Assembly (NCBI RefSeq): GCF_036322585.1
Contig: NZ_AP024600.1
Coordinates: 3,224,001-3,288,000 of the forward strand
Direction of reading: 5' to 3'
Length of the DNA stretch: 64,000 nt
Source of the DNA: Luteolibacter sp. LG18
Lineage (GTDB): Bacteria; Verrucomicrobiota; Verrucomicrobiia; Verrucomicrobiales; Akkermansiaceae
Shown here: positions 22,257 through 46,312 of the stretch, in pieces
Layout of the letters: each line of letters starts with the position of its first letter
Numbering within the stretch: position 1 is the stretch's first letter
Notes under the pieces: model-generated
Told to the model about the DNA's origin: nothing
The model's database searches: none
What the model saw: only the letters and a program-made list of their open reading frames with translations
Program-made: the position numbers and the translations under genes

Positions 22257-22336
22257 TACCGCGGACTGGATGTGCAAAGCCCTTCGCTTCTCTTCCCCCA
22301 CCCACGTTCTCCCGAACGCGGCCACGGAAGAGAGGC

Positions 22337-31230: not shown

Positions 31231-32727
31231 TTATCGCGCCCCGTACTTCGCCTCCGGCTTCTTCTCGAAGCCCGCGTCGGACGGGAACACCGAGACCGCC
31301 GTGGTTTTCCCCGGCGCGCGGCGGGCGGTGCCCGGGCGTTTCACCAGCTCATCGCCGAGTTCCTCGCGCTGCCGGTCCGCGAGTGCGGAAAGGCGTGCCA
31401 CCACCTCCGGACGGGCGGCGGCGAGATCGCTCCGCTCGCCCGGATCGGCATCCAGATCGTAGAGCTGCGCGGCGGGGATCTTCACCTGCGTGTAGGGCAC
31501 GGCCTTGCCGTCCTTCCCCGGCGGTTTTCCCGCCAGCGAGCTGTAGCTGCGCGCGAACTCCAGCTTCCACTTGCCCGAGCGCATCGATTCCAGGTCATTG
31601 CCGTGGTAGTAGAAAAACAGCGCCTCGTGCGGCGCGCGATCGCTCTTTCCCGTGATCACATCGCCGATGTCCACGCCATCGATCTTCCGCGCCGGCAGCT
31701 CCGCTCCGGCCAGCGCCGCCACCGTCGGCAGCACGTCGATGGTCGCCAGCGGCACATCGCAGGTGCGGCCCGCCGGGATGTGGCCCGGCCAGCGCATCAG
31801 CGTCGGCTCGCGCACGCCGCCGTCCCAACTCGTGCCCTTGCCCTCCCGCAGCGGCCCGGCGCTGCCCGCGTGATCGCCATGGTTCAACCACGGCCCGTTG
31901 TCCGAGCAGAACATCACCAGCGTGCGGTCATCGATGCCGCTGCGGCGCAGTTCCCCCAGCACCTCGCCCACCGACCAATCGAGCTCCGCCACCGCGTCCC
32001 CGAACAGCCCGCGCTCCGTCTTGCCGCGGAACTTGTCCGAGACATGCAGCGGCACGTGCACCATCGAGTGCGGCAGGTAGAGAAAAAACGGCCGCTCCTT
32101 GTGGCGGCGGATGAAGTCCACCGCGCGCTCCGTGTACCATGTCGTGAGCTGGTCCTGCGCCGCATCGTCCACCGCTGGATTCACCACCGTGTTGCCCTCC
32201 AGCAGCGGCAGCGGCGGGTGCGTGTTGCCCGGCAGCGGCCGCATGTCGTTCGAATACGGCAGGCCGAAATACTCATCGAAACCCTGCTGCGGCGGCAGGA
32301 ACTCCCGCGCGTCCCCCAGGTGCCATTTCCCGATGCAGGCCGTCGCGTAGCCACGGGTCCTGCACACCTCCGCGATCGTCGTTTCCTCCGGAGCCAGCCC
32401 CACCTTCGAGTGCGGGAACAGCGCGCCAGCGATTCCCACCCTGTTTGGATAACACCCCGTCATCAGCCCCGCGCGGCTCGCCGAGCACACCGCCTGCACC
32501 GAGTAGAAGCTCGTGAACCGTGTCCCCTCCGCCGCCATCCGGTCCAGGTTTGGCGTCGCGTAACCCTTCGCCCCGAACGGGCCGATGTCGCCGTAGCCCA
32601 TGTCATCGATGTAGATCACGATCACGTTCGGCGGCACGGGCTTCTCCTCCGCCGCGCGGACGGAAGGAACCACCACGGCCACCAGCAACCCCAGCACGGC
32701 CCGGAACACGGAAGGACAAGCGATCAT
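31231..32727 (-). CDS. Sulfatase (alkaline phosphatase superfamily), exported
   Basis: This 498-residue protein has a signal peptide (MIACPSVFRAVLGLLVAVVV, then PSVRA). It carries metal-binding aspartates in YIDDMGYGD (Asp41-Asp42) and the sulfatase signature CSASRAGLMTG, in which Cys81 is converted to formylglycine by a maturase (C-x-A/P-x-R type). The motif GKWHLGD and later FCSDNGPW complete the active site. It hydrolyses sulfate esters, probably of polysaccharides, outside the cytoplasm. The ATG at 32727 gives a normal signal peptide; in-frame starts at 32730 (GTG) and 32811 (ATG) are possible. No maturase gene is in the window. Confidence 0.88.
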   Translation of the reverse strand: MIACPSVFRAVLGLLVAVVVPSVRAAEEKPVPPNVIVIYIDDMGYGDIGPFGAKGYATPNLDRMAAEGTRFTSFYSVQAVCSASRAGLMTGCYPNRVGIAGALFPHSKVGLAPEETTIAEVCRTRGYATACIGKWHLGDAREFLPPQQGFDEYFGLPYSNDMRPLPGNTHPPLPLLEGNTVVNPAVDDAAQDQLTTWYTERAVDFIRRHKERPFFLYLPHSMVHVPLHVSDKFRGKTERGLFGDAVAELDWSVGEVLGELRRSGIDDRTLVMFCSDNGPWLNHGDHAGSAGPLREGKGTSWDGGVREPTLMRWPGHIPAGRTCDVPLATIDVLPTVAALAGAELPARKIDGVDIGDVITGKSDRAPHEALFFYYHGNDLESMRSGKWKLEFARSYSSLAGKPPGKDGKAVPYTQVKIPAAQLYDLDADPGERSDLAAARPEVVARLSALADRQREELGDELVKRPGTARRAPGKTTAVSVFPSDAGFEKKPEAKYGAR

Positions 32728-32830
32728 CACGAAGAAAAGGAACCTCCGCCATACGCCCCGCCGCCGCCGGTTGTTTCGCGGAACGTGGGGGAGTGGCGGC
32801 AGGCGCGGCATCCAGAGGGGGCTCTGGATT

Positions 32831-33487
32831 TGGAGTGCGGCGAGGCATCCTGCCCCTTACCCACATCTGCGAGGCGCCGCCTTTTGGTAGCCGCGCTGGT
32901 GACAGCGTGGGCGGGGTGGGGCCACCCACACCCTTGTGGCTCCAGTCCCCATCCAGCGACCGCCAGTTCCAAGCCCGGAGGGCGACGTAACTTAGCCGGG
33001 GCGCGCAAGCCCCCGGATCGCATCGCGGCGGAATCTTCAAGTCCCGGAAGGGACGACGCGGCCTGCGCTCTCCAGGCGGATCCGCCCGTCCTGTTTCTTC
33101 GGGTGATCCGGCACCCTTTGAACGGCGGATGCGGATGTTCATTTGGATTGTCGCTTGGCCTCCGGTTGCGTCGCCCCTCGCCGGGGCTCAGGAGGGTTGG
33201 CGCGAATCCAAAGCGAGAAACCGGATGCACAGGCTCGGGTGAATCCTCCCTGCCCACGTTGTCACCACCGCGGCCACGGTTTGCACCGGAGATGTGGGTA
33301 AAGGGGAGGAGGCATCGCCGCTTTGAGCGGAGGCGAGTCATCGCCGGGGGCAACACCTGCATTCGCCAACCCGCTCCCTCGTTCCAGAATCATCTCTTCC
33401 CTGGTTCCCGCTCCTCTTCCACAGCTCCGCTACAAATCCCGTCGATTCTCTCCGGCACCCAAAGCGGCGATGCCTCGCCGCACTCCA
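32831..33487. mobile_element. 190-bp miniature inverted-repeat element, interrupted copy
   Basis: The ends (TGGAGTGCGGCGAGGCATC at 32831 and its complement ending at 33487) match the intact element at 35394-35583. The copy is split by a 459-bp insertion at 32850-33308 flanked by an 8-bp duplication. Removing the insertion and one duplicate leaves exactly 190 bp, the length of the intact copy. Confidence 0.9.
32850..33308. mobile_element. 459-bp non-coding insertion element with terminal inverted repeats
   Basis: It begins CTGCCCCTTACCCACATCT and ends with a near-perfect inverted copy (AGATGTGGGTAAAGGGGAG). It is flanked by direct 8-bp duplications GAGGCATC (32842-32849 and 33309-33316). No transposase is encoded. 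The interior holds small palindromes (AAGTCCCGGAAGGGACG; CCGGGG/CCCCGG around 32995-33015). It is therefore a non-autonomous element that inserted into a second miniature element. Confidence 0.88.
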
Positions 33488-33530
33488 AATCAGAGACGCT
33501 CCTTTCGGTGAAACCGCTCCTCCGCTCCGC

Positions 33531-34670
33531 TCAACGCGGATCCACCGGCTGCCCTCCAGACGGCGCGGTCGATTGCACGGGAAACTCCAGCTTCCACTCT
33601 CGCAGATCGATCTTGTCCTCCAGCTTCGCCGGTATCTCCGCGTTCCAGGTCACCTGGTCGTCGAACTTCCACTGCCAGCCGTGTTCCACATGGGCCGGGC
33701 CGAGGAGCGCCAGCGCCTCGCGGTACGTCGCCGGGGTGCGGGCGTGCAGCGCGGCCGGATGGATGGCGGCGTCTCCCGTGTAGCAAACCACGCGGCCCTC
33801 CCTCATGCCCAGCCGCGGTGCCGCGCCTTGGCCGATCGCCCGGGCCTGCTCGCCGGAAAGCGGGGCCAGCCCCTCGGGATCGCGGTCGAGATCCACCACC
33901 GATGGCGTTTTCGGCCGTGGCTGGATCGTCCACGTCACCGCATCGGCCAGGTGCCGTGGCAGACCCGGGAGCGAACACTCCACCCCGTCATCGAACCACC
34001 AGCGGCACGCCCCCCCGGTCACCGCGGGATCCAGCCAGCCCGGACCGAAGATCTCCAGCGTCTCCGCGAAGGTCTTCGGCATCCGCTCCCGCTGCTTCGC
34101 TGCCAGCACCACCGGACGGCGCGTGAAATACGCCGCGAACCGTCCCTCGAGCGGGACCGGAATGAACACCGGTGCGTCCTCCGGCTTGAGCGCGCGGGCA
34201 ATTTCGAACGGGCTCGTCTTCTCCGGCACGGGTCGTCGATTGCCGCCCGGAATCGTCCTGATGCGGGGCGGTGCCTCGGCGCTCCAGGTCGGGCGCTCCA
34301 ACGGGTCGTCCAACGGCCGGTCCAACGAGATCGGATGTGTGCCGCCACGCACCACGACCTCATCGTCGAAATGCCACTCCAAGATCCCGACTCCGCTCAA
34401 GGGAGAAACCCATCCCGGACCGTAGGCGGCCAACGCTTCCTCCCACGTGTCCGGTTTCCGCTCGCGAAGCCGCCGATCCAGGAGCAGCGGGCTGGCGGCG
34501 GTGTAGCCGATGAATCGCCCGTTCTGCGCCCACCCCCTGCCGACATGGGGCAACAAGCTCCGGTTCAGGGAAGCCGTCCAATCCGGCTCCTCCGCCCGCA
34601 CCGCGGACAAGCCGGAAAACAGCAGGGCGGAAACCGACAGGGAAACGGCAACGGCGGACACACGGATCAT
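33531..34670 (-). CDS. Exported protein with three internal ~60-residue repeats
   Basis: This 379-residue protein has a signal peptide (VSAVAVSLSVSALLFSG, then LSAVRAEE). Three repeats share a pattern G-R-x-x-x-Y-T ... R-x-P-x-T-(W/F/Y)-x-E-(A/T)-L ... (F/Y)-GPGW ... W-x-F-D-D. They begin at about residues 48 (NGRFIGYTAASPLLLD), 172 (EGRFAAYFTRRPVVLA) and 290 (EGRVVCYTGDAAIHPA). The two linkers are Pro-rich and end in a conserved W-P-type strand. I do not recognise the family. It is presumably a periplasmic or surface protein with three similar domains. A GTG nine bases upstream is an alternative start. Confidence 0.6.
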   Translation of the reverse strand: MIRVSAVAVSLSVSALLFSGLSAVRAEEPDWTASLNRSLLPHVGRGWAQNGRFIGYTAASPLLLDRRLRERKPDTWEEALAAYGPGWVSPLSGVGILEWHFDDEVVVRGGTHPISLDRPLDDPLERPTWSAEAPPRIRTIPGGNRRPVPEKTSPFEIARALKPEDAPVFIPVPLEGRFAAYFTRRPVVLAAKQRERMPKTFAETLEIFGPGWLDPAVTGGACRWWFDDGVECSLPGLPRHLADAVTWTIQPRPKTPSVVDLDRDPEGLAPLSGEQARAIGQGAAPRLGMREGRVVCYTGDAAIHPAALHARTPATYREALALLGPAHVEHGWQWKFDDQVTWNAEIPAKLEDKIDLREWKLEFPVQSTAPSGGQPVDPR

Positions 34671-34827
34671 CGCCGCCACTCTAACAATAATCCCGCCGCC
34701 GTGTTTGTAAAATCTCCGTCAATCAAGAGATGTCCCGGAGATAGGGAAGGGCAGGGGATGCAATCCCCGGGGCGCGTGTCTTTTTCCTTCGACTCCGGTC
34801 CGTCTTGCCCTACCCATCCGGCCATCC

Positions 34828-35358
34828 ATGAGCGAGGACACGTCCAATCCCTACTCCCCACCCGCCAGCGAGCCCCTGCCACCATTGGCCGCGGAATCAG
34901 GAGAGTTTCCCCTCGCGTCCCCGTGGACCCGGTTTCACAGCGTCGTCATCGATGGAGTGGTCAATCTGGGCGTCGTCCGCCTCATCCGCTTCGCGTTCTC
35001 CTCCGCCGGGTTCCCTCTGGTGTGGGCCGAATCGGGGGCCTACGCATCCGGGAAGAACTACCTGCTGGCCCTGTTGGGCATCATCGTGTTCTACGCCGTG
35101 CAATCGTGGCTCCTCTGCCGCAGCGGCCAGACCATCGGCAAAAAACTCACCGGCATCCGCATCGCCACCATGACCGGAGGCAAGCCTTCCGCCATCGATC
35201 TCCTGCTGAAGCGCTATGGCTTCTCGAGCCTCCTCATGTTCATTCCCATCGTCGGCGGAATCATCAGCCTGGTGGACATCCTGAGCATCTTCCGCAAGGA
35301 CCGCCGCTGCCTCCACGACCAGATCGCGGGAACCCAGGTCGTCCGCGTCACGGGCTGA
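34828..35358 (+). CDS. RDD-family membrane protein
   Basis: This 176-residue protein has a Pro-rich N-terminus, then three hydrophobic segments: FHSVVIDGVVNLGVVRLIRF, NYLLALLGIIVFYAVQSWLL and FSSLLMFIPIVGGIISLVDI. The features of the RDD family are present: WTRFHSVVID (R-x-x-x-x-x-D), the GQTIGKKLTGIRI loop after the second helix, and the terminal D-x-x-A-G-T-x-V-V. RDD proteins are proposed transporters or membrane-associated proteins of unknown substrate. The gene is single, with a miniature element 36 bp downstream. Confidence 0.85.
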   Translation: MSEDTSNPYSPPASEPLPPLAAESGEFPLASPWTRFHSVVIDGVVNLGVVRLIRFAFSSAGFPLVWAESGAYASGKNYLLALLGIIVFYAVQSWLLCRSGQTIGKKLTGIRIATMTGGKPSAIDLLLKRYGFSSLLMFIPIVGGIISLVDILSIFRKDRRCLHDQIAGTQVVRVTG

Positions 35359-35393
35359 AACGCATTCAAAAAGGAGGCAGGGTGCCTCTGATG

Positions 35394-35583
35394 TGGAGTG
35401 CGGCGAGGCATCGCCGCTTTGAGCGGAGGCGAGCCATCGCCGGGTGCAACACCTGCATTCGCCAACCCGATCCCTCGTTCCAGAATCACCTCTTCTCTGG
35501 TTCCCGCTCCTCTTCAGCGGTTCCGCTGCAAGTCCCGTCGATCCTCTCCGGCACCCAAAGCGGCGATGCCTCGCCGCACTCCA
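35394..35583. mobile_element. 190-bp miniature inverted-repeat element, intact copy
   Basis: Perfect 28-bp terminal inverted repeats (35394-35421 and 35556-35583, starting TGGAGTGCGGCGAGGCATC) enclose about 134 bp of non-coding sequence. It shares the interior with the copy at 32831-33487 (e.g. CAACACCTGCATTCGCCAACC). No open frame of its own; presumably mobilised in trans. Confidence 0.9.
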
Positions 35584-35597
35584 AATTCAGAGCCGCC

Positions 35598-35972
35598 TCA
35601 CACCCCCGGCACGTACGGCGCATCCAGTACCGTCACCGTGCCATCCTCGTTCGCCGTGAAAGCATTCGTCGGAAACAGGATCTCCGGCGTTTCCGGCGCC
35701 TCCTCCAGCGCCGCCAAGGCCAGGATCAGCTCCGTCAGGTGGCCGTGCGCGCGGAACACCTTCACCGCGCTGGTGCCCAGCGTGTCCACCGCCTCCTGCG
35801 GCGTGAGCCGCGGATTGCTCCAGATCGTCTCGATCCCCTGGCGCTGCATCGCGCACAGCCGCTGGAAGTTCGTGGCCGCGCTCTGCCGCACCACCCGCGG
35901 CACCAACTGGCGCATCTGCTCCTTCGTGGGTTCCTGGACGGGCGGCTTCTCGATGGGTACGAATAGTTTCAT
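35598..35972 (-). CDS. Small hypothetical protein, possibly phage-derived
   Basis: This 124-residue protein begins MKLFVPIEKPPVQEPTKEQM. Its core is helical with repeated Gln, Ala and Leu (LCAMQRQGIETIWSNPRLTP; LTELILALAALEEAPE). The family is not recognised. Its start overlaps the preceding stop (ATGA), making it the last of three co-directed genes. The set looks like small phage structural or accessory genes, but no diagnostic phage gene is adjacent. Confidence 0.45.
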   Translation of the reverse strand: MKLFVPIEKPPVQEPTKEQMRQLVPRVVRQSAATNFQRLCAMQRQGIETIWSNPRLTPQEAVDTLGTSAVKVFRAHGHLTELILALAALEEAPETPEILFPTNAFTANEDGTVTVLDAPYVPGV

Positions 35973-46293: not shown

Positions 46294-46312
46294 CTGCCCT
46301 TTACCCACATCT
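46294..46312 (+). mobile_element. End of the CTGCCC-TTACCCACATCT element family
   Basis: CTGCCCTTTACCCACATCT matches the terminal inverted repeat of the 459-bp insertion at 32850-33308. The other end is not visible here. Palindromes AAGGGATCGC and GATCCCGGAGGGATC follow within 250 bp, so a decayed copy or relative probably occupies about 46294-46560. No gene is seen in 46313-46574. Confidence 0.6.

Follow-up and report, generated by a model that had tools for sequence, protein, structure and literature searches.

A gene-less inverted-repeat element that appears to specialise in landing on the terminal hairpins of REPIN-like repeats in Luteolibacter sp. LG18

The nested block and its contents

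The window analysed here is a stretch of 64,000 nucleotides from Luteolibacter sp. LG18 (genome positions 3224001-3288000, on a single 5.80-Mb contig). Directly upstream of a minus-strand sulfatase ORF (31231-32811; Pfam match 6.1e-55) it contains a 657-bp block of nested repeats, and an intact copy of the outer repeat lies further along the same strand (Table 1). An Rfam scan of window positions 32700-35700 gave zero matches.

A prior reading based on the sequence alone (the sequence-only reading) had interpreted this block as a 190-bp element split by a 459-bp element, and this was borne out to the base. An exact 8-bp target duplication, GAGGCATC, is present on both sides of the insert as claimed, and the arithmetic of the block (657-459-8=190) is exact. 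The intact copy does have the perfect 28-bp inverted ends ascribed to it, and over 182 nt the split copy shares 93% identity with it. The ends of the insert, described as near-perfect inverted repeats, match at 17 of 20 positions when its first 20 bases are compared to its inverted last 20. Our data also support the claim that both elements lack a transposase gene and depend on enzymes supplied from elsewhere. We refer to the 459-bp insert and its relatives as el.

Table 1. Positions of the repeat features in the window
Feature	Position	Strand	Remarks
190-bp REPIN-like element, split	32831-33487	+	32831-32849 and 33309-33487, with the 8-bp repeat counted in both
Left copy of the 8-bp target duplication GAGGCATC	32842-32849	+	Hairpin loop plus 2 bp of stem on each side
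459-bp transposase-less element el	32850-33308	+	Longest inner ORF 52 aa
el left terminal inverted repeat CTGCCCCTTACCCACATC	32850-32867	+	
REP-E, GTAG-tagged REP within el	32887-32910	+	Resembles repeats flanking the RAYT-like gene at genome 3371634 on both sides
REP-B stretch within el	32967-33134	.	Resembles flanks of the Y1 genes at 3208268 and 3554726; el positions 118-285 as query
REP-E inverted partner, near el right end	33237-33278	-	el positions 388-429 as query
el right terminal inverted repeat CTCCCCTTTACCCACATC	33291-33308	-	Minus-strand reading
Right copy of the 8-bp target duplication GAGGCATC	33309-33316	+	
REP-A hairpin, right end of split element	33464-33487	-	
190-bp REPIN-like copy, intact	35394-35583	+	
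REP-A hairpin, left end of intact copy	35394-35417	+	
REP-A hairpin, right end of intact copy	35560-35583	-	

The interior of el resembles repeats found beside other genes. In the window copy, similarity to the repeats that bracket the RAYT-like gene at 3371634 was found for el positions 38-85 and 383-429 (E 9e-5 to 7e-4), and positions 118-285 resemble the flanks of the two Y1 genes listed in Table 1. A 259-bp el at 2866293 matches both flanks of a third Y1 gene, at 1478339. The genes at 3208268 and 1478339 match NCBIfam IS200/IS605; the gene at 3554726 is a Y1 gene by Pfam only. When el interiors from two related genomes (G041 and G012) were compared with RAYT loci, zero matches were obtained. 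Judged by likeness, then, the el interiors tested from the LG18 genome hold REPs of other RAYT or IS200-like genes. Since the el interior matches repeats of other RAYT and Y1 loci, the window block is read as a nest with four levels, consisting of a REPIN with REP-A ends, el, a GTAG-tagged REP doublet and a REP-B stretch. It illustrates how nested intergenic repeats are built up from several REP families.

GTAG repeats that stand alone, with no el ends, were also seen at several loci in the genome, and a REP-E-like hairpin with a GTGG tag occurs in the window far from the nest (22302-22325, minus strand). In G041, the relative of the sulfatase gene (81% identical) has neither the 190-bp element nor el upstream, and the intergenic space is occupied by a different REP array (G041:C1:2846000-2850000). 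We rejected this locus as a clean empty site because of that array and because synteny is lost on the other side.

The 190-bp element and its relation to RAYT-like genes

The sequence-only reading had recommended a search for further copies of both elements and for an autonomous relative. For the 190-bp element, a DNA search found at least 32 distinct places, 72-100% identical to the query, in the 5.80-Mb genome; the count is a lower bound, 40 of 61 first-look candidates having been scored. Twenty-four of these places are two-ended (including 1658866, which is 153 bp long), and the other eight, being partial or split, were left out of the copy comparison. About ten further places were found in the relative G041, from which nine two-ended copies were compared. 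All 33 two-ended copies start and end with the hairpin TGGAGTGCGGC-GANNNNTC-GCCGC, with few changes, and so consist of two inverted REP hairpins (REP-A) with outward tags. The two REPs of a copy have identical loops in 15 of 33 cases, which is above permutation (p 0.0004) and confounded by clade structure.

Two other forms were observed. A longer version of the element, flanked on each side by a conserved arm of about 40 bp, is present at 3927686, 3915006 and 1658866 and at three G041 loci (L232, L233 and L238). Short, nearly perfect REP-A palindromes that lack the 190-bp spacer and may be collapsed REPINs are found at 5656463-5656486 (L240) and at 4412317, the latter of which hosts an el.

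The intact copy folds into a single long hairpin (z -9.28, with 0 of 200 shuffles as good), and the doublet shows compensatory changes. In an alignment of 28 sequences, the end-joining pairs at columns 15/181 and 16/180 have two-sided changes in 10 and 9 sequences, respectively, and are broken in 7 and 4. Any two-sided change was seen in 6 of 46 pairs; most remaining pairs are nearly invariant, and covariation contributes little to the consensus fold (-0.69 kcal/mol).

None of the 24 two-ended LG18 copies had a direct repeat of 5-9 bp in its flanks at offsets of 0-11, and matches of 3-4 bp were limited to one copy or fewer per offset, close to what permutation gives. The lack of a 5-9 bp duplication speaks against a DDE-type MITE and is consistent with single-strand transposition.

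The REP-A hairpin pattern, with one mismatch allowed, was matched in 15 of 73 genomes of the genus, and in several genus genomes the hairpin flanks the gene for a 178-aa protein. This protein matches NCBIfam REP_Tyr_transpos (6.7e-17; 61.7 bits, below the curated cut-off of 80) and Pfam Y1_Tnp (0.0053; 17.3 bits, below the cut-off of 23). At a threshold of 1e-5 its relatives were found in 38 of the 73 genomes, and the LG18 genome gave zero matches. At G070:C7, for example, the hairpin TGGAGTGCGGCGACATGTCGCC is present on both sides of a RAYT-like gene whose product is 51% identical to the 178-aa protein.

We assembled 22 such RAYT loci, comprising matches at 44% identity or greater with surrounding DNA. 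REPs of the same kind flank the gene at 18 of the 22: GGA(G/C)T-tagged hairpins lie near it at 14 loci and a TTGAGT variant at four. Thirteen of the 14 GGA(G/C)T loci have, from the listed positions, an inverted doublet with outward tags, roughly 105-170 bp long. No such hairpin was found at the remaining four loci (L137, L141, L144 and L154), two of which, L141 and L144, are truncated by the ends of their contigs. The density of tagged hairpins was 0.85 per kb at the RAYT loci compared to 0.036 at 17 Y1 loci of the LG18 genome and 0.027 in one shuffle of the same loci. Beside the REP-A hairpin we found GGA(G/C)T or TTGAGT instead of a GTAG-type tetranucleotide; RAYT classes with atypical flanking structures are established (PMC6006769).

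The LG18 genome itself has 17 Y1_Tnp matches (16 above the cut-off) and nine REP_Tyr_transpos matches, together representing 18 distinct genes. With three substitutions allowed, no convincing REP-A was found near any of the 18, the only weak matches being one where a gene match begins (L124) and one at a distance of about 1.4 kb from a second gene match (L225). The cognate transposase therefore appears to be missing from this genome.

The 190-bp element had at first been taken for a simple inverted-repeat MITE. This was not supported, given the lack of a target duplication and the likeness to REP doublets beside the RAYT-like genes of relatives. On present comparisons the best reading is a REPIN, with its cognate RAYT not found in the LG18 genome. 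As no such gene was found there, the LG18 copies are probably relics. Such an inverted doublet of REP hairpins would have been moved via single-stranded DNA by an HUH/Y1 transposase, presumably one of the RAYT clade present in related species.

Insertion of el at the dyad of REP hairpins

The ends of el have the form CT(G/C)CCCNTTACCCACATC. With two or fewer mismatches, this pattern gave 23 matches in the LG18 genome compared to 3 for a reversed control pattern; together with the copy number of the 190-bp element, this shows that the nested repeats are not due to chance. Exact ends were present in four genomes of the 260 from the family, and these four belong to one genus. Allowing one mismatch, they were present in 6 of 73 genus genomes, which added G041, with a real el, and G072, with a single match that had no mate in the surrounding DNA examined. 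A scan of named genomes yielded 11 stretches, three of them contigs of G024, G012 and G002. Nine other loci from the named-genome and viral scans had no properly paired end in the stretch examined (the viral match was at a stretch edge) and were therefore taken as chance.

We compared 14 two-ended copies from four genomes (seven from LG18, four from G002, two from G012 and one from G041). All have terminal inverted repeats. At 13 of the 14, the flanks are the halves of a REP-type hairpin and el is inserted at its dyad, within a base. The hairpin flanks are only partial at G002:C21, and the right half is degenerate at 2866293. The loops vary between sites and species (GAGGCATC, GAGACATC, GATTGCTC, GACATGTC and GACAAGTC) while the position of the insertion is constant. 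A perfect 8-bp repeat flanks six of the copies and a 7-mer flanks two, these two being one locus common to two genomes. The duplication is imperfect or lacking in the other six (7/8 at one, 6/8 at three and none at two). As a control, perfect matches between the flanks of different el sites were seen in 9 of 182 comparisons. The copies are 259-789 bp in size with longest inner ORFs of 34-160 aa and, judged from ORF length, none of them encodes a transposase. Insertion of el with an 8-bp duplication at hairpin dyads is thus recurrent in several genomes. Some el loci are common to relatives (G012:C399 and G002:C262), so there were fewer insertion events than copies. The sequence-only reading had recognised the nested insertion and missed its site, the dyad of a REP hairpin, which is used repeatedly.

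Among the matches examined, five LG18 remnants have one el end. Those at 3919976 and 4604045 adjoin REP-A halves, and those at 3270294, 3174524 and 2580764 lie outside REP-A. The remnant at 3270294 is in the window (46294-46311), where an unpaired left end is followed by REP-C-like sequence, and looks like a truncated el. In relatives, the one-ended copies G012:C616 and G024:C577 (at a contig end) lie within REP halves; G024:C492 adjoins a variant REP half, and G024:C411 lies outside REP halves.

No autonomous el was found by end pattern in the LG18 genome, 73 genus genomes (one mismatch), 260 family genomes (exact), the named genomes or viral contigs, a search that diverged ends would escape. 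A scan of the 73 genus genomes for a REP half followed by CT(G/C)CCC also revealed no autonomous el among the places examined; zero-mismatch REP-half places in G001, G056 and G045 were not el. The autonomous relative anticipated by the sequence-only reading was therefore not obtained in the genomes scanned.

We propose, with a probability of roughly three in four, that two unrelated non-autonomous elements are nested in the window: an outer 190-bp REPIN moved by a RAYT and an inner terminal-inverted-repeat element, el, inserted at the REP-hairpin dyad by a DDE transposase acting in trans. A DDE enzyme that cuts 8 bp apart is the most likely mover of el because of its terminal inverted repeats and 8-bp duplications. 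The cue for this enzyme could be a cruciform structure, the palindrome as a sequence or a protein bound to the REP. This genomic parasite appears to be specialised in landing on another one, since elements related to it occupy the same type of site at other places in the genome and in related species.

Could both elements be ordinary MITEs moved by DDE transposases and nested by coincidence? Both are repeated, have terminal inverted repeats and lack transposase genes, and el makes 8-bp duplications. We nevertheless consider this very unlikely, as the 190-bp copies have no target duplication and resemble REPs beside RAYT-like genes, and as 13 of the 14 two-ended el places share the same kind of dyad.

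It could also be speculated that el and the REP-A halves form one composite that is moved together by a RAYT, the 8-bp "duplication" being part of its design. REP-A halves do flank most el copies, and those at 3114306 are symmetric (GAGGCATC el GATGCCTC). However, loops differ between sites, and in 6 of 14 copies the two sides of el nonetheless carry matching loop sequence; el is also seen in the left REP, in the right REP and in a bare palindrome. Furthermore, 27 of the 32 places of the 190-bp element (eight of the 32 being partial or split) are without an el end, so the proposal that other copies might carry the same 459 bp, which would make it part of the element, did not hold. At the five places with an el end (3257309, 3194880, 3344816, 995711 and 4603914) the interiors and sides differ; flanking 8-mers are identical in the window and at 3194430 and agree at 6/8 positions at 995187 and at 3344027-3344815, and the fifth place is truncated. 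We regard a composite as highly improbable.

A further explanation is that el spread mainly by homologous recombination or REPIN movement after a few founding insertions, and that its site specificity was inherited rather than chosen. The el end types are reassorted among copies, and at two loci (3114306 and 3344027) the flanks have opposite orientation, as expected if two el copies had recombined. On the other hand, duplications, sides, interiors and host loci differ across the four genomes, making this a distinctly doubtful account of the whole pattern. The locus at 3344027-3344815 (L106) has two el fragments that bracket a possible gene (longest inner ORF 146 aa) and is probably rearranged. 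We dropped it as a compound transposon because its flanks look rearranged.

If the nested insertion is as we propose, a stronger form of it is that el is a hyperparasite at home in the terminal-hairpin loop, reading REPs as cruciforms or through a REP-bound RAYT and carrying REPs of other RAYT and IS200-like genes as cargo. Recognition of this kind would lead el to track REPIN populations across species. We think this unlikely in full. The enzyme that cuts for el might also be a protein of the HUH type that attacks both strands of the extruded loop, and not a DDE transposase.

What makes el useful is that a gene-less element makes a precise, repeated choice of target, in which the loop changes between species and the dyad position is constant. 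It thereby offers a natural system for asking whether transposases recognise a hairpin by its shape (or by a protein bound to it) rather than by its sequence.

Comparison with known repeats and REP-targeting elements

IS231A, an autonomous element of the IS4 family, inserts into the terminal repeats of Tn4430. As with el and the REPIN, one element targets the terminal repeats of another, but IS231A is autonomous and el is not. The IS231 subgroup makes duplications of 10-12 bp, longer than the 8 bp of el (PMC2266710, Table 1). According to the same table, the subgroups IS10, IS50 and ISPepr1 have CT-type ends and 7-9 bp duplications, like el. This similarity of ends is two bases only and el has no transposase sequence to compare, so a kinship with these subgroups (PMC2266710) is a lead only.

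The association of REPINs, or REP doublets, with RAYT genes is established (Bertels and Rainey 2011, PMC3116915). As described there, REPINs consist, like the 190-bp element, of two inverted REPs and a spacer, fold as one hairpin, are repeated and are associated with a RAYT, the last being seen here in relatives. In the GI doublet of that study, the first residues of the two 16-mers are separated by 71 bp; the element described here is 190 bp long. It also differs in having a TGGAGT tag in place of GTAG, and no cognate RAYT was found in its own genome. REP dimers have also been described inside other, longer palindromic repeats (PMC3733652); unlike the el nest, the account of them in the text available from that source mentions neither target duplications nor insertion into a second REPIN.

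IS elements specific for REPs include ISPsy8, ISRm22, ISPpu9/10 and IS1397, which, like el, enter REPs at a fixed point (Tobes and Pareja 2006, PMC1525189). According to this source, ISPsy8 and ISRm22 insert at the axis of the REP palindrome, like el, and Tn5 target sites are often palindromic. The repeats generated are 3 bp for ISPsy8, 6 bp for ISRm22 and 2 bp for ISPpu9/10, compared to 8 bp for el, and these IS elements encode transposases whereas el does not (PMC1525189). In the open-licence literature we found no description of a transposase-less element with terminal inverted repeats that is specific for REPIN loops. IS elements that target REPs are known, and a gene-less element with inverted ends and this specificity looks like a new variant.
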